DNA of 64,000 nt from a bacterium HR15 (GTDB lineage: Bacteria > Armatimonadota > Fimbriimonadia > Fimbriimonadales > GBS-DC): positions 124,001 to 188,000 of the forward strand of contig BEHR01000001.1 of NCBI GenBank assembly GCA_002898555.1. The letters run 5' to 3'. The position numbers and the translations under genes are program-made. Of the stretch, positions 8,797 through 62,826 are shown one piece after another (positions within the stretch are counted from its first letter, which is position 1; each line of letters starts with the position of its first letter). Below the pieces are notes generated by a model, which had not been told where the DNA came from, did no database searches, and saw nothing but the letters and a program-made list of their open reading frames with translations.

Positions 8797-8802
8797 ATTA
8801 TA
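8797..8802 (-). promoter_or_regulatory. -10 box TATAAT of rplU
   Basis: GGGTATAAT on the minus strand lies 24 bases before the rplU ATG and is followed by a leader with an aggagg ribosome-binding site. It is a useful contrast with the leaderless promoters in this window. Confidence 0.55.
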
Positions 8803-8888
8803 CCCCCAACTTGCCACCTTGTTAGGGTTCCTCGCCTCTGGAATGATTATATCCCTTTGTATCCGAAGCTAATTGGACCCCCCACTCT

Positions 8889-9770: not shown

Positions 9771-11246
9771 TCATAGCATGTTCACGAATCGTTCGGTCTC
9801 GCGCGGATAGGTGCTGAACGGGTCACGCATGTCGACCTGGCGGTTGCGGTCGACATAGACGATATCCCAGTCGATGTAGTAGCGGTTGTAGCGTCGCTCT
9901 GCGAGGCGTTTGATAATGTAGCCGCGCGCTGCGGCGCGCGTGTTCTGCGGAGGGGTGGTGACGGCGGCTTCGATCTGCACATCGTCCACCAGCCGCTTCA
10001 CCTCGCCCATCTGTTGCAACGCATAATACAGTCCCTGCTCCGGGTGGATGTTGTGATATTCCAGATCGATGGCGTGTAGCGCGTCGTCGCCCCATTTCGC
10101 CCCTGTCTCCTCCATATAGGTGCGCAGCACTTTGAGCTTGATCAGCCAGTCGATGCGGTCTTCCAGTTGTTCAGGGTCGCTTTCGAGCATGTCCAGCACA
10201 TACGCCCACTCCTGCAGCACCCAGTCGGTTTCGGGGTCGCGCCCAGCGAAGCGCCGCTGTGCCAGTTGCAGATAGATACGTTGCAGATCGATGGCACTGA
10301 TGGTGCTGCCGTCCAGCATTTGCACAATCCATTTGCGGGTTGGATCGCGCGAGACGCTTTTGAGCGTGTGGAGCGCGTCCTGCAGACGCAACCAGTTCGG
10401 CAACGCACGCGATTCGGCTAAATCCAGCACGAGGCAGGTAGTGCCTATCTTGAGCGCCATCGCATACTCGCTCATGTTGCCCTCGCCAAACAGCAGGTGC
10501 AGCCGTTGATAGTTCTGGTAGCCGTACACGCTGTCCCATTTCGGGTTGATAATCGCGCGGTTGAAGCGCACGCGGGAGGCGTTCTCGCGCACGATATGGT
10601 CCGCACGCTGCGAGAGCTGATAGGTCACGGTTGGGTCAGGCTCCACATTATAGACATTGGAGACCCAGATGAAGTCGATGGGGTGGTCTGCCACCTCGGA
10701 GAGGGAGGGTCGGAAGCCTGCGTGTTCGAGCCGATGTCCACCCACACGCCCCGCGCCCGCGAAAATCTGGCGCGTGGTGAGGAAGGGAAGCACGGTCTTG
10801 TGCCAGTCGGAGGGTAGGCGGTCGTCGGTGCGAATGAGATAGTTCTCGTGGCAGCCGAAGGTGTGCCCCGCAAAGTGGTCCACATTATTGTTATGGAAGC
10901 TGACCCGCTCTTCCCAGCCCAACCCACGCAGGATATCGACGATAATGCGCTGTCCTGCCTTCTCGTGGCGCACCAGGTCGAACAGGCTGGCGCATTCCGG
11001 CGTGGCGTACTCCAGGTGGCTGCCGACGGCGTCGATATAGAGTCGTCCGCCATTAATCAGGAACCCGCCACTGCGGGCAGGTTCAAACGCTTCGTCACGG
11101 GCGGTCAGGTCGATCAAGCCGAGCCGCGCCTTGTGGAAGGCGTAGTTCTTGACCGCTTCGACGACCGTCTCGGAGGTGCCGATGCGCTCATCGCGCACGA
11201 AGCACCCAAACTCCGTCTCGATCCCGAAGATACGGCGACCAATCAT
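9771..11246 (-). CDS. pafA: UBact/Pup ligase PafA
   Basis: A carboxylate-amine ligase of the glutamine-synthetase-like PafA/Dop family, 491 residues. It joins the C-terminal Glu of the modifier to substrate lysines using ATP. Diagnostic features are the N-terminal GIETEFG, the catalytic-Asp strand GGRLYIDAVGSHLEYATPEC (PafA-type GSH-EYAT, not the HAHPEY of Dop), FKNN-like FHNNNVDH with GCHENYL, and RLHLLFGEGNMSEYAMALKIGT. The C-terminus DPFSTYPRETERFVNML matches the PafA C-terminal domain. There is no Dop loop. Shine-Dalgarno gaggtga precedes the ATG. It is the last proteasome gene of a five-gene cluster. Confidence 0.92.
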   Translation of the reverse strand: MIGRRIFGIETEFGCFVRDERIGTSETVVEAVKNYAFHKARLGLIDLTARDEAFEPARSGGFLINGGRLYIDAVGSHLEYATPECASLFDLVRHEKAGQRIIVDILRGLGWEERVSFHNNNVDHFAGHTFGCHENYLIRTDDRLPSDWHKTVLPFLTTRQIFAGAGRVGGHRLEHAGFRPSLSEVADHPIDFIWVSNVYNVEPDPTVTYQLSQRADHIVRENASRVRFNRAIINPKWDSVYGYQNYQRLHLLFGEGNMSEYAMALKIGTTCLVLDLAESRALPNWLRLQDALHTLKSVSRDPTRKWIVQMLDGSTISAIDLQRIYLQLAQRRFAGRDPETDWVLQEWAYVLDMLESDPEQLEDRIDWLIKLKVLRTYMEETGAKWGDDALHAIDLEYHNIHPEQGLYYALQQMGEVKRLVDDVQIEAAVTTPPQNTRAAARGYIIKRLAERRYNRYYIDWDIVYVDRNRQVDMRDPFSTYPRETERFVNML

Positions 11247-11308
11247 GCAAGTTCACCTCGTTGTTTGGGCAAGTAGTGTTTGATTCGCCACTCACTCTTC
11301 ACCATACG

Positions 11309-12061
11309 CTATAAATGACGCAGGTAGCCCTGCAGTTGTTCCGCCGGCACGAGCCGAAAGCGGTTTTCACGCATGGTCTGTCGTTCCAGGATTCCCAGTT
11401 CGATCTGTGCCTCCTGCAGCTCCTCGCGCAGACGCTCTCGCGCACGCGATTCGGCGATTGGCTCGCCCTCTTCTTGCATTGCGGCTTCGCGTGCGATACC
11501 CCACGCGACCATCGCGGCAGGGATTGCCTTCTCGAAGGTGGGAATGCCGTCGAGGGTCTCACTCAGGAAGCGCATCGCCTGCTCTTCCGCGCGCGTCGTG
11601 CCCGCAATCACGGCGAACCGCTCAGCAGGTGTGAACTCCCCGTCATAGTTGAGGATGTAGAACAGGTCGCGTTCTGGTGAGGCGTGCAGTTCCCCGAACA
11701 GGGCGCGCACCACGAACGGTGTGGTCAGTGGGTCGCCAAACGCCTTTTTGAGCGCAGGGCTGAGCGCAAAGCCGACCACCCGCTGCACTGTCACATCGTC
11801 GGGGCTGCGCACGAAGCCCTCCTGGTGTGCAAAATCGATCGCTGCCAGGCGCAGCGTCTCCACATCCGCTTGGTTGCCTATGGCGGAGAGCATCAGGCGG
11901 TCATAGATTTCGAACACTTTGCGCCCGCGTCGGCGCGTGGTAAAGAGCAACACCCCGTTCTCATAGCTGATGCCAATGACAGGGCTGCCCGCTTGCAAAC
12001 GGTTGCGGATATATTGCGCTCGCTGCTGGATGTTCTCTTGAAAGTCGTAGGGGGTCAACAT
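11309..12061 (-). CDS. prcA: 20S proteasome alpha subunit
   Basis: 250 residues with the proteasome fold and no catalytic N-terminal Thr; it begins MLTPYDFQENIQQRAQYIRNRL, the alpha-type N-terminal helix. GISYENGVLLFTTRR is the first beta hairpin. Alpha rings form the gated outer pores of the 20S core and receive the ATPase. The C-terminal helix is charged (ESRARERLREELQEAQ). It starts 6 bases after the prcB stop with ggagggtga as ribosome-binding site, so the two are translated together. Confidence 0.9.
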   Translation of the reverse strand: MLTPYDFQENIQQRAQYIRNRLQAGSPVIGISYENGVLLFTTRRRGRKVFEIYDRLMLSAIGNQADVETLRLAAIDFAHQEGFVRSPDDVTVQRVVGFALSPALKKAFGDPLTTPFVVRALFGELHASPERDLFYILNYDGEFTPAERFAVIAGTTRAEEQAMRFLSETLDGIPTFEKAIPAAMVAWGIAREAAMQEEGEPIAESRARERLREELQEAQIELGILERQTMRENRFRLVPAEQLQGYLRHL

Positions 12062-12067
12062 CGGTTC

Positions 12068-12913
12068 TCACCCTCCGCGCAGGGAAGTGACGATTTCGCG
12101 CAGGGTCGATTCGGGCACTTCGAACACGCCCTCGCGGTTCACATAGCGGGCAGTGGGCAGCACCTTGTCGATGCCGCCTGTGGCAGCGTCCAGGTCGGCG
12201 GCGATGTCCAGCAGCAGAATCGCCTCACGCAGCACCTCCTCCAACGGTCGCTCGCTGAACGCGCCTTTGGTCTTGGCGATATAGTCGAACACGCCGCGAA
12301 TGCGCTCGGCGCCGGAGCCAGCGGCGCCGTAATCGGGCGTTTCGAAACGGGCACCGCTGGCGTCGTAGAAGAAGATACGCCCAGCGTCCTGATCGGGGTC
12401 ATACGCGCTCAAGATAGGGATGAACAGTCCGATCCCGCTCAGCGCGTTCGGCAGGTTCGAGGCAAGCACGCGGCTCACCTCCTGCAGTTTCCCGTCGAGG
12501 CTCATCGGCTGAAGTTGACTGCGGGCATAATACTTGAAGGCGTGACGCAGGTAGCGCACCACCTCCATCGCGCGTCCATACGCCCCTGCAATCGCCATCA
12601 GCGTGTAGTCGTCCAGCGGGATGATTTTATCGGCGCGGTCATACATCACGACATTCGCCGCAGTGGCACGGCGGTCGCCCACATTCAGCACGCCACCCTT
12701 GAACTTGACGGCAATTACCGTCGTGCCGTGCACCTCCAGGCGGGGGAAAGCCCCCTCGCTGCTGGGGAGCGCGGGCATAGCCGACCTCGGTGCTCCTTGT
12801 CCCTCATCCCTTAGAGGCGAGAGCTTCGGCGTGGCGAACAGAGGCAGCGTCGTGCCCGTTTGCGCCTGCCATTCCCGAAGCAGGCTCGCGAAATCGCCCT
12901 GATGCCCTCTCAT
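12068..12913 (-). CDS. prcB: 20S proteasome beta subunit with 63-residue propeptide
   Basis: The catalytic subunit. The mature N-terminus is the Thr of HG|TTVIAVKFKGGVLNVGDRRAT, with the conserved Asp and Arg of that strand, so autocleavage should remove residues 1-63. ATG 12913 is chosen because it lies one base after the ubact stop; the frame runs on to 13009 but only over ubact. The propeptide is Pro/Ser-rich and its DNA contains a GGGGG/CCCCC inverted repeat, suggesting repeat-derived sequence. It sits between ubact and prcA, the standard order. Confidence 0.92.
   Translation of the reverse strand: MRGHQGDFASLLREWQAQTGTTLPLFATPKLSPLRDEGQGAPRSAMPALPSSEGAFPRLEVHGTTVIAVKFKGGVLNVGDRRATAANVVMYDRADKIIPLDDYTLMAIAGAYGRAMEVVRYLRHAFKYYARSQLQPMSLDGKLQEVSRVLASNLPNALSGIGLFIPILSAYDPDQDAGRIFFYDASGARFETPDYGAAGSGAERIRGVFDYIAKTKGAFSERPLEEVLREAILLLDIAADLDAATGGIDKVLPTARYVNREGVFEVPESTLREIVTSLRGG
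12742..12755. repeat. GGGGG-AAAG-CCCCC inverted repeat in the prcB propeptide
   Basis: A perfect 5-bp G/C inverted repeat with a 4-base loop inside coding sequence for the Pro-rich propeptide. It could form a stable mRNA hairpin just 5' of the region encoding the catalytic Thr. Confidence 0.5.
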
Positions 12914-12914
12914 G

Positions 12915-13103
12915 CTACTCACCACTGCGTTGACGATAGCGACGCGCCTGCTCCGGGTCGATCCGCCGCATCCGTTTGAGCAGCTCGTTCGTGTCGGGAC
13001 GCTGCACATCGGGTCGCGTTGGACCGTCGCCGTCGCCGCCCGGTTTGGTAATCGGCTCCTGGGGGATAGGGCGTCGCAATCGCTCTTCCACTTGCCAGAT
13101 CAT
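12915..13103 (-). CDS. ubact: Ubiquitin-like modifier UBact (Pup homologue)
   Basis: A 62-residue, hydrophilic, disordered protein: Pro/Gly-rich middle (ITKPGGDGDGPTRPD), then a helical C-terminal half ending RYRQRSGE. The UBact variant of Pup described for Gram-negative phyla ends this way, whereas actinobacterial Pup ends GGQ or GGE. The terminal residue is already Glu, so no deamidation by Dop should be needed before PafA uses it. The ATG overlaps the dop stop (ATGA), with a strong aaggaggt site inside dop, so translation should be efficient and coupled. prcB begins one base after its stop. Confidence 0.93.
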   Translation of the reverse strand: MIWQVEERLRRPIPQEPITKPGGDGDGPTRPDVQRPDTNELLKRMRRIDPEQARRYRQRSGE

Positions 13104-14599
13104 GATTGAACCTCCTTGACCATCTGCACGAAGATGGATATGTTGGGAGCCGTCGTCAAACGGCGGCTCAGCGTGCGCATATCGAGATCAACCAGTCGGC
13201 TCAGGTCGAGCCGCACCGTCTGTTCCCCACTGCGCAGTATAATCCGTTCCCAGTTGAGCGTTTCGATCTGCTCGGCAAATCGCTGAACGCATAGCCCACG
13301 AATGGCAGCGCGTGTGTCCATTGGCGGTTGGTGAATCGCTTGCTCGATGGCCTCCATGCTGACCAGCGTGAGCATGCGCCCCTGCTCCACCAGGGCATAG
13401 TAAAGCCCTTCGGTGGGGTCTATGTTATGATACTCCAGATCGAGGGCAAAAAGTGCCGGGTCGTCCCATGAGACGCCCTCCGATTCCACATAAAGGTTCA
13501 GCAGTTGTCGCTTGGCGACCCAGTCGAGTCGGTCGGCAAGTAGGTCTGGGTCGGCTTCCAGCACATCAAGCACCGTTTGCCACTCGCGCAGGAGCCAGTC
13601 GGTCTCGGCGTCGCGTCCGAGAAACTGTTCTTGCGCCGCTTGTAGATAGACGCGCTGGATATCGATGGCGCTGAGCGTGCCGCCATCGGTTTCCACCAGC
13701 CATTTCATGTCGGGGTCGCGTGAGAGGCGTTGCGCCTCGCGCACAGGGTTCGGGATAGTAATGGGCGTTCGCCAGCCCGCTTCTGTCAAATCCAACACGA
13801 GGGCGGTCGTGCCCACTTTGAGCGCGGTGGCATACTCGCTCATGTTCGCATCGCCGCAAATCACATGCAGGCGTCGGTAGCGGCGCATCGTGGCGTGTGG
13901 CTCGTCGCGTGTGTTGAAGATGGGGCGCCGATAGAGCGTCTCCACATTCATGATGTCCATATAGAAATCGGCACGCTGCGACAGCTGAAACGGCACACGC
14001 GGGTTCGGCTCCACCTCCACGCCCACCTTGCCCGCCCCCGCATAGAGCATGCGCGTCACCAGAAAGGGGAGCATATTGCTCGCCAGCGTTTCAAAGGGGA
14101 CTTGGCGCGTGAGCGAGTAGCTTTCATGGCAGCCGTAGCTGCTGCCGTGATGATCGGTGTTGTTTTTGTAGAGGGTGGCTTTGTTGCCGGTATATTGCTG
14201 GTAGGCTTGGGCACATGCCAACACGATGCGTTCCCCGGCTTTATCGTGCGCAATCAATTCGAGCAGGCGTCGGCATTCGGGCGTGGCATATTCAGGATGG
14301 GCATGGTCATTATAGAGGCGTGCGCCGTTGCCCAGCGCGTGGTCGGAGCGTGCCTCGCGCTCCGAGATAGGCAGGGGATGCTCGCGCTCAATTTGCGCAT
14401 CGTGTGGGTCCACTTCCAGATGCTCCACGCGGAAACCGCGCATATCGCGGCGCGGGTCCTCCAGGCGATAGTCCCAGGTTCGAACCGCATGGAAGGGACA
14501 ACTGCGCACCACGCCTATCGCATCGATTAGCTGGTCGGCAACCCCCCGACCCTCCACATACAAGCCATACTCCGTCTCAATCCCCGTTAGGCGATGCAC
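13100..14599 (-). CDS. dop: Depupylase/deamidase homologue Dop
   Basis: A PafA/Dop-family enzyme of 499 residues that hydrolyses modifier-substrate isopeptide bonds. It is Dop rather than PafA because it has the Dop-loop region WDYRLEDPRRDMRGF and the strand GARLYNDHAHPEYATPEC. GIETEYG, LYKNNTDHHGSSYGCHE and RLHVICGDANMSEYATALKVGT are the other family blocks. Because the modifier ends in Glu, the deamidase activity may be unnecessary here. The start is GTG, 6 bases after a TATAAT box (14611-14606), which predicts a leaderless mRNA for the head of the proteasome operon. Confidence 0.92.
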   Translation of the reverse strand: MHRLTGIETEYGLYVEGRGVADQLIDAIGVVRSCPFHAVRTWDYRLEDPRRDMRGFRVEHLEVDPHDAQIEREHPLPISEREARSDHALGNGARLYNDHAHPEYATPECRRLLELIAHDKAGERIVLACAQAYQQYTGNKATLYKNNTDHHGSSYGCHESYSLTRQVPFETLASNMLPFLVTRMLYAGAGKVGVEVEPNPRVPFQLSQRADFYMDIMNVETLYRRPIFNTRDEPHATMRRYRRLHVICGDANMSEYATALKVGTTALVLDLTEAGWRTPITIPNPVREAQRLSRDPDMKWLVETDGGTLSAIDIQRVYLQAAQEQFLGRDAETDWLLREWQTVLDVLEADPDLLADRLDWVAKRQLLNLYVESEGVSWDDPALFALDLEYHNIDPTEGLYYALVEQGRMLTLVSMEAIEQAIHQPPMDTRAAIRGLCVQRFAEQIETLNWERIILRSGEQTVRLDLSRLVDLDMRTLSRRLTTAPNISIFVQMVKEVQS

Positions 14600-14605
14600 A
14601 AAGGA

Positions 14606-14611
14606 ATTATA
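14606..14611 (-). promoter_or_regulatory. -10 box TATAAT of the proteasome operon, leaderless GTG start
   Basis: GGGGTATAAT on the minus strand is followed by 6 bases and then the GTG of dop. The vapC stop is next to it, so the whole promoter lies over the 3' end of the PIN-toxin gene. Confidence 0.6.
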
Positions 14612-15029
14612 CCCCAGATGGGGCGAAAGGATTCACGATGTCCACGCCTTCCAGCGTTGCGCCCGCATGGAAATCCTCGCTGTAGAGGGTTGGGATTCCA
14701 TATTCGCGGGCAGCAGCCCAGATGAGCGCGTCCCAGAATGCCAGTTGATAGCGTTCCACTCCATGCAGCGCGCGGCGGGTTATGGCAGGGGTGAGTGGTA
14801 GGACCTGGGCCGTTGCCATCATTTCCTCAGCCAGTTCACGAATAGAATCGAATTGGGCTAAGCCCTGCCGCTGTTTTCTCATCATCACCGCGCAAAATTC
14901 GTGAACAATTTGCACGGTGATGACGAGGCGTCCTTCATCGGATAGGGTGCGTATCAACCGCTTAGCAATTTCGCGTTTCTCGCTTGCCTGCAGGTCATGG
15001 GCATACACAAAAATGTTGCTATCCACCAT
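14607..15029 (-). CDS. PIN-domain ribonuclease toxin (VapC-like)
   Basis: About 140 residues with the PIN fold. The first acidic residue is in MVDSNIFVYAHD at the N-terminus, with later acidic residues in FWDALIWAAA and YSEDFH, the expected Mg-binding set. ATG 15029 gives the family-typical start 2 residues before the first Asp; the frame runs on to 15083 over the antitoxin gene. It overlaps the upstream antitoxin by 11 bases, a translationally coupled toxin-antitoxin layout. Target RNA unknown. Confidence 0.82.
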   Translation of the reverse strand: MVDSNIFVYAHDLQASEKREIAKRLIRTLSDEGRLVITVQIVHEFCAVMMRKQRQGLAQFDSIRELAEEMMATAQVLPLTPAITRRALHGVERYQLAFWDALIWAAAREYGIPTLYSEDFHAGATLEGVDIVNPFAPSGV

Positions 15030-15282
15030 CGCCAGATACGAGTCGACCGATTCGCTCCTCATAGAGTTCCTCCCTATTGACATAGCCTTTTCCCCCTAAG
15101 GGAAAGCCCTGCTCCATGCGTTCAAAGAACCGCTGGATTAGCCGTTCACGTTCTTCCTTCGATAGGGGGGGCACAAACCGGAGAAAAGTCACGAATACCT
15201 CTGCCTCCTGAATGCCGTCGGGCAGTTCCTCCAGCTCGATCTGTCCGTTGCGATAGTAGCCGCGTACTGTGATAAGCGCCAT
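15019..15282 (-). CDS. Antitoxin of the PIN toxin
   Basis: 87 residues beginning MALITVRGYYRNGQIELEELPDG, a beta-rich start shared with the DUF104/AF2212-type antitoxins that pair with PIN toxins, followed by a charged helix (KEERERLIQRFFERM) likely to wrap the toxin. The upstream leader has TATACT about 20 bases before the ATG and an aggtgagg ribosome-binding site. The family link is by pattern; the pairing is supported by position. Confidence 0.75.
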   Translation of the reverse strand: MALITVRGYYRNGQIELEELPDGIQEAEVFVTFLRFVPPLSKEERERLIQRFFERMEQGFPLGGKGYVNREELYEERIGRLVSGDGG

Positions 15283-44487: not shown

Positions 44488-44505
44488 CGACGGTGGATTA
44501 TACCC

Positions 44506-45786
44506 CTACGGATAGATTCCACGAATAGTGGTCGCTTCGGCAACGCGCTGCACTCCGATGATGTACGCGCCCATGCGCAGGTCCACTTTATTCTTCTCTG
44601 CCACTTGCCGCACATGCTCGAAGCTGCGTCGCATCACCTTCTCCAGGCGGGCATTTACTTCTTCTTCCTCCCAGAAGAAGGCTTGCAAATCCTGCACCCA
44701 TTCGAAGTAGGAGACGACCACGCCGCCCGCGTTCGCCAGGATGTCGGGCACCACAAGCACGCCGTTATCCTGCAGGATGCGATCGGCGTCGGGCGTGAGC
44801 GGGCCGTTTGCCGCTTCGACGATGACCTTTGCCCGCACATTATGCGCGTTCTCGGAAGTAATCACGCCATGAACGGCAGCAGGCACGAGAATATCGCAAG
44901 GCAGCTCCAGCAACTCTTTGTTGGTGATTTGGTCCGCATCGCGATAAGCTTGGATGCAGCCGTCGCGCCCGGCGCAGTGCAGCAGGTTGGGGATGTCCAG
45001 CCCGTTCGGGTTATAGATGCCGCCGCGTGCATCGGAAATGGCGATGACCTTCGCCCCCGCCTGATGCATCAGTTTTGCTGTGGCGGAGCCGACATTCCCA
45101 AAACCTTGAATGACCACCCGTGCGCCATCCAGTTGGAACCCGCGCAGTTTTGCTGCTTCGTGCGCGACCACCGTGACGCCGCGCCCTGTCGCTTCCAGTC
45201 GCCCTTCGGAGCCACCAATCGCCACCGGCTTGCCCGTCACGACGGCTGGCACGGTGTAGCCCTTGTGCATGGAGTAAGTATCCATAATCCACGCCATCAC
45301 TTGCGGGTTCGTGCCGATGTCGGGCGCGGGAATATCCGATTCGGGACCAACCATGATGGAGATTTCGGTGATGTAGCGACGGGTGAGGTTTTCCAACTCG
45401 TGGATCGAGAGGCGTTTCGGGTCGCACACCACGCCACCCTTCGCCCCGCTGTAGGGGATGTTGACCACAGCGCACTTCCAGGTCATCCACATCGCCAGTG
45501 CGCGGGTTTCATCAAGCGTGACTTCGGGGTGGTAGCGAATGCCCCCCTTGGCAGGGCCGCGCGCGGGATTGTGATGCACGCGATAGCCCGTGAAAACACG
45601 GATGGAGCCATCGTCCATTTTAACGGGGAAGTGAACTATCAGTTCGCGGCGAGGGTGCTTTAAGACCTCCAGCAAGCTACGGTCTAAGTTCAGATAGTAA
45701 GCCGCTGCTTCCAGCTGGCGTATGGCAATCGCATACGCGCTGCGCTCTTCGGTTCTACGCTCTTCTGCGAGCATGGTCTGCACCAT
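44506..45786 (-). CDS. gdhA: Glu/Leu/Phe/Val dehydrogenase (glutamate dehydrogenase)
   Basis: 426 residues, hexameric-type length. The substrate half contains [23 protein letters not shown] and the catalytic Lys in [31 protein letters not shown] follows; the nucleotide-binding half contains [21 protein letters not shown] and later [15 protein letters not shown]. It interconverts glutamate and 2-oxoglutarate with NAD(P)H. It follows mreD by 54 bases. Confidence 0.94.
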
Positions 45787-49881: not shown

Positions 49882-50047
49882 GGTACTCCCCTCAAATCAT
49901 GATGATACTCCCTGTGAAACCCGCATCGTTACAGAAGCGTTATAAGCCCCTGCTTCTAAATCTATTAAGGTACTCCCTATGTATGCCAGCCTCCTGCTTT
50001 TGACATGCAGGAAAAGAGGTATCTGTGCTGAAGGTAGCTGCCCGGCG

Positions 50048-51055
50048 ATGGAACTTGGCTGGCTGAAAGAACCTGCGCCCTATCGGGATGTGGTTATTTC
50101 GCAGCGGGTGCGACTGGCTCGGAATCTCCTTCTCTTCCCGTTTCCCCATGCAGCCAGCGAGGCGCAGCTGCGGGAGGTCGCGCAGCTGCTCCGCGCTGTA
50201 TTGGAACCCATTGGATTAGGCACAGGTGGCGTGAAAGAGTTGGCTCAGCTGAGCTTGGATGAGCGGGCGCAACTGGCGGGTGCGCGAGTAATCAGCCCCG
50301 CCTTGCTCCCTGCCTTGCCCCACCGCTGGGTGCTGCTCAGCGAGGACGGCAGCGTTGTCGCGCTTATTAATGAGGAAGACCACCTGCGCCTGCAAATCAC
50401 GCACGCAGGCTGGCAGCCTGACCGTATGGTGGACGAGCTGCACCACTGGGAACAGCGGCTGGATGCGCTGCCGATGCGCTGGGGCTATTCCAGTCGGCTG
50501 GGCTATCTGACTGCCTCGCCTATTAATCTTGGTTCGGGTATTCGACTGGGGCTACTTATGCACCTCATGGGGTTGCAACGGGCACGCCAGATTACGCGCT
50601 GGCTGGAAGCGTTGCAAGCGCTGGGCTGTCACACCCGCGGATTGTATGGGGAGGGGAGCCTTGCCTTTGAGGGCTATGTGCAAATCTCGCTGCTGGGCAG
50701 GCGTGACCCTCTGCCTGAACTGCTGGCACGATTGCGCGGCACGCTGCGCACCCTGATTGAGGCGGAGCTGGAGGCACGGCTGCAACTCTCGATGGATGAA
50801 CTGGACGCCGAGTGGGAGGAGCTAAACACCACCTTGCGCCATGCCGCGTCGCTCTCGCTGGGCACAACGCTGCGCACGCTGGCGGTCCACCGCATGCGGG
50901 CAATGCTCAGGGGCGACGAGGCACAGCGCGACTTCACGGATCAACTCCTGTTCGGACTGGCGGTCTATCCTCCACCCGAACCCGACTACGCCGCCTCCGA
51001 ACGAGCAAGATGGTTGAGAGAAAACTATACTCTAACCATGAAGCACACAGAATGA
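50048..51055 (+). CDS. mcsB: Protein-arginine kinase, McsB-like
   Basis: 335 residues of the ATP:guanido phosphotransferase fold. Landmarks relative to ATG 50048: VVISQRVRLARN (15-26, nucleotide-binding Arg), INEEDHLRLQ (107-116), GYLTASPINLGSGIR (152-166) and TRGLYGEGS (196-204) with catalytic acidic residues kept. In canonical McsB the third block reads CPTNVGTG; here Cys is Ser (S157). McsB phosphorylates arginine to mark proteins for ClpCP. mcsA, ctsR and clpC are not in the window. Whether it is active is uncertain, because the thiol is replaced and the last 60 residues are divergent. Confidence 0.82.
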   Translation: MELGWLKEPAPYRDVVISQRVRLARNLLLFPFPHAASEAQLREVAQLLRAVLEPIGLGTGGVKELAQLSLDERAQLAGARVISPALLPALPHRWVLLSEDGSVVALINEEDHLRLQITHAGWQPDRMVDELHHWEQRLDALPMRWGYSSRLGYLTASPINLGSGIRLGLLMHLMGLQRARQITRWLEALQALGCHTRGLYGEGSLAFEGYVQISLLGRRDPLPELLARLRGTLRTLIEAELEARLQLSMDELDAEWEELNTTLRHAASLSLGTTLRTLAVHRMRAMLRGDEAQRDFTDQLLFGLAVYPPPEPDYAASERARWLRENYTLTMKHTE

Positions 51056-53012: not shown

Positions 53013-53169
53013 CTTCGCACCTCCATGCTCCCTATACGGCGCGATTCCCCTCGACATCACAGGACTTTAGTCCCAATCTGTCGCCCATGAGCGAGAGGAT
53101 ACCTCCACAGGAACCTTTCAGGGGAGTGTGGGGTATAATAGCGGTAGAAGCGAGGAGGTCAATCACCCT
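53013..53169. promoter_or_regulatory. Divergent control region between DUF2339 gene and proteasome ATPase
   Basis: Contains GGACTTTAGTCC (53062-53073). On the minus strand a TATAGG hexamer (53036-53031) follows it by 25 bases. On the plus strand GGTATAAT (about 53132-53139) precedes the ATPase, whose leader carries a gaggaggtc ribosome site. Confidence 0.55.
53062..53073. repeat. Palindrome GGACTTTAGTCC, copy 2
   Basis: Toward the DUF2339 gene on the minus strand it reads GGGACTAAAGTCC, preceded by ATGGGCGACAGATT; a TATAGG hexamer follows after 25 bases. Confidence 0.65.
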
Positions 53170-54861
53170 ATGGCACGGCGCTATGATAAGGACGACTTTT
53201 TCGAGGAGATGCCCGAAACGCAGATACGCGCACTGGCAATCCTCGAAGAGATTATGCGAATCGCGCCCCGCACCGACCTGCGCCTAATCCGACTGCTACA
53301 ACTGTTGCACCATCAGCTCCAGGTCGACGAGAAGCAGATGCAGGAGGCAATGCAGGCGCTTCAGGAGTACGAAGAGGCGTATCAGAAACTCACCTCGCCT
53401 GCCAACCGCATCGGCGTTTTTCTCGGCTCCCCTGATGAGGATATCGCGCTGGTGGCGATTGGCGACAGCGAGTATTACGCGAACATCGACCCCAAACTGG
53501 AAAACAAGGAGTTCAAGGTTGGCACGCGTGTAAAGGTCAACGAGGCGTTCGCCGTCATCGGCGACCTGGGTTATCACCCCGCAGGTCCCGTGGTGAAGGT
53601 GCAAGAGGTGCTGGATGAGCAGCGTCTGCGCGTGGCGACCGATCCACAGGGGATGACCTCCCGCATCGTGTTCCGCTCCAGCGATCTCGCCGAAAAAGTG
53701 ATTAAACCGGGCGATGAAGTCCGCTTGGAGCCGAACTTCAAGGTGGCCATCGAGCATATTCCCCATCAGGAAGTGCGTGATTACTACTTCGAGGAAGTGC
53801 CCCCCATCGAGTGGAGCCAAATTGGGGGACAGGAGGAGGCGATTCGGCTCATCCGGGAGACCATCGAACTGCCCCTGCTGCATCCCGAAATATTCAAGCG
53901 CTTCGATAAACAGCCGTTGAAGGGCATCCTGCTCTATGGTCCACCCGGCTGCGGCAAGACGCTCATCGGCAAGGCAACTGCCTATAATCTCACACGCCAG
54001 TACTCCGAACGGTTGGGCAGACCCGTCAAAGAGTACTTTATGTACATCAGTGGACCCAAGATTCTCAACATGTGGCTGGGCGAGACGGAGCGGATGGTGC
54101 GTGAAATCTTTGCGATTGCCCGCGAGAAGGCGCGCGAGGGCTTTCTGGTGTTTATCTTTATCGACGAGGCGGAATCGATTCTGCGCGTGCGCAGCACAGG
54201 AAGGTGGCTTAACATCTCCAACACCGTCGTGCCCCAGTTCTGTGCCGAGATGGATGGGCTGGTCAGCCTTGAAAATGTGGTGGTGATGCTTACCTCGAAC
54301 CGACCCGACTATATCGACCCCGCCATTTTGCGACCCGGACGCATCGACCGCAAGGTGAAGGTAAGGCGCCCCGATCGCGATGCAACCACCGAGATTTTTG
54401 GCATCTATTTGCACGAGAACATCCCTCTTGACCCTGACTTCGTGGCGCAGTTTGACAGTCCGCGCGAGGCGCGAGAGTGCGTGATTGAACAGGCGGTGCA
54501 GTACCTGTGGCGCAAGTCGCCCGACACGGAGTTCCTGCAGGTCTATCTCCGAAATGGGGGTGTGGAGACGCTCTATTGGCGCGATCTGGTCAGCGGCGCA
54601 CTGATTAAATCGGTGGTGGATCGGGCGAAGGAGTTCGCTATTCGCCGCGCCATCGATAACCCTGAAGACGAGCATGGTATTCGCCCCGATGACCTGCGTC
54701 GCGCCATCGAGATGGAGTATCGTGAGAACGAAATCTTCCCCAAGTCGGACGCGATGGAGGATTGGCTCAAACTGATCGACTACGAACCCGAAAATGTCGC
54801 CAGCGTGAAACCTATCCGCCCCGACGCCCGTCAGGACGACACGCGCCGCACAATTATCTAA
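53170..54861 (+). CDS. arc: Proteasome-associated AAA ATPase (ARC/Mpa)
   Basis: 563 residues. N-terminal helical/coiled-coil part to about 90 (QMQEAMQALQEYEEAYQKL), OB-type beta domains to about 205, then AAA: IGGQEEAIRLIRETIELPLL, Walker A YGPPGCGKTLIGKA, pore loop in ILNMWLGETER (Trp in place of the usual Tyr), Walker B IFIDEAESIL and RPGRIDRKV. It recognises the UBact/Pup tag, unfolds the substrate and feeds the 20S core. The C-terminus is DDTRRTII, without the Tyr-Leu end that docks Mpa onto the proteasome. It is about 38 kb from the rest of the system. Confidence 0.9.
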   Translation: MARRYDKDDFFEEMPETQIRALAILEEIMRIAPRTDLRLIRLLQLLHHQLQVDEKQMQEAMQALQEYEEAYQKLTSPANRIGVFLGSPDEDIALVAIGDSEYYANIDPKLENKEFKVGTRVKVNEAFAVIGDLGYHPAGPVVKVQEVLDEQRLRVATDPQGMTSRIVFRSSDLAEKVIKPGDEVRLEPNFKVAIEHIPHQEVRDYYFEEVPPIEWSQIGGQEEAIRLIRETIELPLLHPEIFKRFDKQPLKGILLYGPPGCGKTLIGKATAYNLTRQYSERLGRPVKEYFMYISGPKILNMWLGETERMVREIFAIAREKAREGFLVFIFIDEAESILRVRSTGRWLNISNTVVPQFCAEMDGLVSLENVVVMLTSNRPDYIDPAILRPGRIDRKVKVRRPDRDATTEIFGIYLHENIPLDPDFVAQFDSPREARECVIEQAVQYLWRKSPDTEFLQVYLRNGGVETLYWRDLVSGALIKSVVDRAKEFAIRRAIDNPEDEHGIRPDDLRRAIEMEYRENEIFPKSDAMEDWLKLIDYEPENVASVKPIRPDARQDDTRRTII

Positions 54862-58777: not shown

Positions 58778-58896
58778 CGTTGAGCCTCCCTTCGTTTGAT
58801 TGAGGGAATTACTCCCTTCAGGATTATACCCCAAATCCCTCTCGAGCAAGAGGTATACTCCGCAGCGTGCATCTTGGTGAAGAGGAGGTCGAAACG
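58778..58896. promoter_or_regulatory. Divergent promoter region
   Basis: Minus strand: GGGGTATAAT about 45 bases before the lamin-tail gene. Plus strand: GAGGTATACT (about 58849-58858) before the matrixin gene. Both transcripts have leaders with ribosome-binding sites (aagggagg; gaggagg). Confidence 0.55.
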
Positions 58897-62560: not shown

Positions 62561-62826
62561 CGCATTCCACCTTTGCTAATTAAGGTTAGGATGGCGCGGT
62601 GATTCCAAGCCAGCAGCGAAGCACTCCGCAAGGAACTACAACGAGGTACCGATTTCGGCTCTATTATACCCCATGCAGAAGAAACGCCCCAGAGAAGGGT
62701 ATTTGTAGTGCCAGTGATGGAACACGCAGATTTACGCGCTTCATGTGCACATGCTCTTTGCAAAGCACCTTTCTCAGAGGGAGGGGGATAGAGTCGTCGA
62801 ATCGATACAGCGTGAGGAGATAGGCG
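62561..62826. other. Intergenic region before the rhomboid gene
   Basis: About 265 bases. A minus-strand TATAAT-type box (attataccc near 62664) faces the GNAT gene. The rest has phrases such as aacacgcagatttacgcg that are typical of dispersed repeats. The rhomboid ATG is preceded by gaggagatagg. No gene recognised. Confidence 0.4.

Follow-up and report, generated by a model that had tools for sequence, protein, structure and literature searches.

In the window, the 64,000-nucleotide stretch of bacterium HR15 DNA analysed here, five minus-strand genes at 9771–14599 form a UBact-type operon, as the initial annotation had proposed. In order of reading, these are dop (13100–14599; depupylase-like, a putative de-UBactylase/deamidase of 499 aa with a GTG start), ubact (12915–13103; a 62-aa modifier), prcB (12068–12913; proteasome β subunit, 281 aa), prcA (11309–12061; proteasome α subunit, 250 aa) and pafA (9771–11246; UBact ligase-like, 491 aa, lacking the Dop-loop). 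The set had been described as complete and ATGA-coupled. All five genes are indeed present, but the gene for the proteasomal AAA+ ATPase (arc/mpa; 563 aa with OB and AAA domains) lies outside the operon, at 53170–54861 on the plus strand; and dop and ubact do overlap by ATGA (13100–13103), but the other three junctions are gaps of 1 nt (ubact–prcB), 6 nt (prcB–prcA) and 62 nt (prcA–pafA). Profile scores, all under the curated NCBIfam cut-offs, were 457 bits for Dop (TIGR03688; 353 bits with TIGR03686), 303 bits for PafA (TIGR03686; 288 bits with TIGR03688), 146 bits for PrcB (TIGR03690), 75 bits for PrcA (TIGR03691) and 449 bits for the ATPase (TIGR03689). The modifier scored 90.5 bits with NF033388 (cut-off 35 bits) and 82.4 bits with PF20513 (cut-off 27.8). 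Judged by its sequence, the UBact system here is genuine and intact, and nothing out of the ordinary for its phylum.

A −10 box, TATAAT, stands at 14606–14611 on the minus strand, six bases before the dop GTG at 14597–14599, so that the whole feature spans 14597–14611. All 12 family genomes carry the same hexamer 6–7 nt ahead of the dop GTG, and the bases on either side of it are poorly conserved. Because of this spacing, the RNA would start at or beside the start codon, and dop is probably leaderless. The ubact start in the dop tail was confirmed, together with its strong ribosome-binding site: AAGGAGGT lies at 13110–13117 (minus strand) within the last dop codons, 6 nt upstream of the ATG, with a duplex energy of −12.4, a value reached at 0.8% of random window positions. 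Among 149 starts, a 4-base dop/ubact overlap is seen more often than any other layout (58 cases), and it is the norm in the window's family. The ubact starts of relatives were chosen partly by their ribosome site; a survey of site strength is therefore biased and is not taken as proof. From this site, modifier levels above enzyme levels had been expected. An excess of UBact over Dop is plausible, but the sequence gives no ground for claiming one over PafA, because the pafA (−11.8) and prcA (−11.6) sites are nearly as strong, that of prcB being −7.4; the contrast is mainly with dop.

The sequence GGGGTATAAT occurs six times in the window (8797–8806, 14606–14615, 44497–44506, 53130–53139, 58823–58832 and 62663–62672), against 0.01 expected by shuffling. 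One copy precedes dop, another precedes the ATPase gene and a third lies where the gene for ribosomal protein L21 begins; the element looks like the organism's common promoter form. A PIN-domain gene (14607–15083, minus strand) and a small overlapping partner ORF (15019–15282, minus strand) in a VapBC-like layout end 7 bp before dop. A regulatory link between the PIN-domain gene and dop as a feature of the system was rejected, no homologue being found at the dop locus of family relatives.

Across the phylum Armatimonadota, UBact and the ATPase were each found in 167 of 291 genomes, which places the system among those of an already known kind. Dop/PafA family members and PrcA were present in 29 of 32 genomes checked. 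Three genomes of the same order (G133 and G134, of 1.5 Mb, and G177) lacked matches to UBact, Dop/PafA, PrcA and the ATPase alike at the thresholds applied, an apparent loss of the whole system. The six-gene order arc–dop–ubact–prcB–prcA–pafA is found in deeper Armatimonadota families and at Latescibacterota, Gemmatimonadota and Verrucomicrobiota loci. In the window's own family the ATPase gene has moved away, here to a site 39 kb from the operon, and in several members pafA is detached as well. Dispersal extends further in two other families: prcA and pafA have also moved in one (f3), and dop–ubact or less remains together in the other (f2). Absence of prcA and pafA from these two families was ruled out, both genes being found elsewhere in the genomes checked. 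Since the ATPase gene directly precedes dop in deeper families and in other phyla, the window carries an old six-gene operon that has partly come apart. Among named genomes, the nearest are Armatimonadetes/Fimbriimonadales assemblies, most of them metagenome-derived, and for this reason the suggestion that the locus offers a compact experimental model fares poorly: it would be a weak one at the bench.

The modifier has 62 residues and ends in RQRSGE, confirming the reported Gly-Glu end of the UBact kind. Nine UBacts compared with Pfam gave no match to the Pup family at E-values as high as 10. The C-terminal region of Pup is acidic; the last 28 residues of the window UBact carry a net charge of +4. 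Among 152 phylum UBact ORFs, 62 end in Gly-Glu, 90 in Gly-Gln and none otherwise, with last codons CAA (52), CAG (36), GAA (34) and GAG (28) when the best ORF per genome is counted. The two states differ within 11 of 37 sister pairs. The window's family comprises eight Glu and four Gln genomes, with both states inside a single genus, and other phyla are likewise mixed (RTGE, RTGQ). At two loci (L103 in G008 and L193 in G009), two ubact genes lie close together and the second copy has diverged (YEQRSGQ and YKQRPGQ).

The initial annotation had concluded from the Glu end that Dop is not needed as a deamidase. Deamidation is indeed unnecessary here, but this was already known: depupylation has been inferred as the main role of Dop for Glu-ending tags in the Pup field (PMC12288473), and the G[EQ] end outside Actinobacteria is noted in a 2008 report (PMC2588565). 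What does not follow is a special Dop-free pathway, because the Glu/Gln state is labile in the lineage, down to a single genus. Dop was present in all 29 system-bearing genomes checked, and its loss from Glu-ending genomes was ruled out, as two genomes without dop beside ubact (G032 and G033) carry it elsewhere. The window Dop, whose closest solved structures are Dop entries 5lrt and 4b0r, keeps the catalytic Asp, the NTRDEPHA motif and the Dop-loop Trp; the catalytic Asp, the R137 equivalent and the R207/R227 equivalent are retained in 125 of 125 aligned Dops. Given the frequent switching and the retention of Dop with its active site, Glu spares this genome a deamidation step that appears evolutionarily optional, while Dop is kept regardless.

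The ligase-like protein departs from its relatives at the rim of the active site. In Corynebacterium glutamicum (Cgl) PafA, R137, R207 and R218 adjoin the active site and recognise substrates; R207A abolishes FabD pupylation, and the equivalent mutation in M. smegmatis PafA removes nearly all of the pupylome, while Pup activation still works (PMC10465538). The window PafA has T, K and Q at these positions (Cgl numbering) and thus lacks the site-2 arginines of Pup ligases. Among 30 Armatimonadota PafAs, the R207 position is K in 29 and R in one, and Arg occurs at neither the R137 nor the R218 position in any, whereas each of the 17 UBact ligases of other lineages has all three arginines. As those ligases, and the 125 aligned Dops at R137/R207, retain them, the change is confined to the ligases of Armatimonadota and has left Dop untouched. 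In addition, NTRDEPHA is replaced by NPKWDS in the window protein, and the Armatimonadota-type PafA carries one additional residue following the catalytic Asp (DAVGSH); the Asp itself is kept in 30 of 30. Site 3 (R442, K444) reads I and Y in the window PafA, at positions that are variable in other lineages as well. The loss of all three site-2 arginines suggests that this ligase would pick its substrates with a rim unlike that of the Pup ligase.

The proteasome subunits align with known counterparts. PrcB has a propeptide of ~62–63 aa followed by TTVIAVKFKGG, solved mature PrcB chains aligning from its residue 64 or 65, and the mature chain has T1, D17 and K33. PrcA aligns to PrcA structures 1q5q and 3h6f and keeps the pocket Lys52, with Arg26 replaced by A. 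Across the alignment of relatives, Lys52 is kept wherever the region is readable, and Arg26 is replaced, mostly by D, E or G. In the known arrangement, Mpa docks through a C-terminal GQYL, its Tyr contacting PrcA Arg26 (or Glu119) and, in one of the two docking modes, its carboxylate contacting Lys52 (PMC9599533). The window ATPase ends in RRTII, without GQYL, and the GQYL end was absent from all UBact-lineage ATPases examined. Their tails are mostly aliphatic pairs (II, VI, VV), with a few Armatimonadota ending otherwise (IM, VT, VS). An aliphatic tail together with Lys52 in the absence of Arg26 would fit docking by the free carboxylate and aliphatic side chains, with no Tyr contact. A McsB-like protein-arginine kinase gene lies 2.1 kb before the ATPase gene (49979–51055, plus strand; 150 bits, under the cut-off). 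It encodes SPINLGSG at the position where McsB usually has CPTNLGTG, and, if active, would add to the window another enzyme that tags proteins for degradation.

We consider it probable, at roughly 0.8, that the window encodes a UBact–proteasome system of known kind that acts as follows. Transcription probably begins at the dop GTG, and translation of ubact would start from a strong ribosome site of its own within the end of dop, as the conserved sequence suggests. UBact would be made ready to use, with its C-terminal Glu already present. By family chemistry, PafA would phosphorylate that Glu with ATP and join UBact to target lysines. The ARC/Mpa ATPase may then take up tagged proteins and unfold them into the PrcAB proteasome, and Dop, to judge from its retention and conserved active site, would remove and recycle UBact and, in Gln-ending relatives, deamidate it too. 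Genes, families, conserved residues and gene orders are read directly from sequence; the activities are predicted from them.

Three other readings were weighed against this scheme. The gene called pafA might encode no ligase at all but another hydrolase or a modified enzyme: the TRDEPHA motif and R207 are lost, as are most of the ligase-diagnostic α-loop residues. A structure search with the predicted model (mean pLDDT 87, pTM 0.90, low confidence at 178–198 and moderate confidence at the α-loop) recovered the PafA/Dop fold at TM ~0.8 to both and did not separate ligase from hydrolase, Dop entries matching equally well or slightly better. The protein nevertheless lacks the Dop-loop, carries V-G-S after the catalytic Asp and has more PafA-type than Dop-type states at diagnostic positions. 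It also groups with PafA on a Dop–PafA tree with support of 93, taken as moderate because the reference branches are long and the position of CgPafA is unsure. From these features we infer a ligase. A hydrolase here would moreover leave the genome without one, since dop and pafA are the only two members of the family found in it, and we regard this as the least probable of the three. Scarcely more credible is a stable lineage adaptation in which the Glu end marks a pathway rid of deamidation. A Glu end is indeed shared by the window's UBact and those of 7 of the 11 other family members, but a tree of 137 Dops calls for at least 34 Glu/Gln changes, only somewhat below the mean of 43 (lowest 36) given by shuffled labels, and sister genomes disagree. 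Dop active-site residues are kept in Glu and Gln groups alike, and the Dop branch of the Glu lineage is the longer one in 7 of 11 pairs, which is no consistent difference.

The third reading concerns the fate of tagged proteins. UBact tagging could be mainly non-degradative, with the ATPase pulling apart tagged complexes as in C. glutamicum, which uses Pup non-degradatively (PMC12288473), and the proteasome a minor partner. Detachment of arc (and, in some relatives, of pafA) from prcBA would accord with this, as would an ATPase end without GQYL. Against it stand the placing of prcB and prcA in the same operon, the T1, D17 and K33 of the β subunit, and the finding of PrcA in every system-bearing genome checked; we judge it unlikely, though less so than the other two. 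The UBact–proteasome scheme remains the preferred reading.

The UBact system was reportedly named by Lehmann et al. in 2017 (cited in PMC12751074); the literature searched here mentions UBact in passing and contains no experiments on it. The window matches that system in modifier sequence, in the G-[EQ] end and in having dop, ubact, prcB, prcA and pafA in one locus, but differs in its relocated ATPase gene and in a PafA of Armatimonadota type, in which K stands in place of R207 and a residue is added after the Asp. With the actinobacterial Pup–proteasome system it shares the enzyme families, the G-[EQ] tag end, the PrcAB proteasome and an Mpa/ARC-type ATPase; it differs in the lack of a Pup Pfam match, the net +4 charge of the last 28 tag residues, the aliphatic ATPase end in place of GQYL and a PafA without site-2 arginines. 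The accessible text of the 2008 report describes Pup orthologues with a G[EQ] end in nitrospirae, verrucomicrobia, deltaproteobacteria and planctomycetes, and Armatimonadota are not among the lineages it names (PMC2588565). Beyond the initial annotation, the analysis points to a rebuilt ligase rim, a labile tag end, a distinct ATPase tail and a probably leaderless dop. We tentatively suggest, at somewhat less than even odds, that Armatimonadota form a distinct UBact branch. Its ligase rim, with R137, R207 and R218 replaced, TRDEPHA changed to PKWDS and an extra residue by the Asp, would serve a different target set from those of Pup ligases and of UBact ligases in other phyla, as expected if the substrate-recognition rim is rebuilt. 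Its ATPase would dock on PrcA by an aliphatic tail and free carboxylate, not by GQYL, as would those of the other UBact lineages examined.

The frequent Glu/Gln switching suggests that evolution readily adds or drops the deamidation step but retains Dop, in keeping with a constant role of Dop in de-tagging and recycling. Work on Pup has yet to settle how a single ligase chooses its many substrates. The Armatimonadota enzymes, related ligases that have replaced all arginines of the main known recognition patch while the partner Dop in the same genomes keeps the R137/R207 equivalents, may serve as a natural experiment on that choice.
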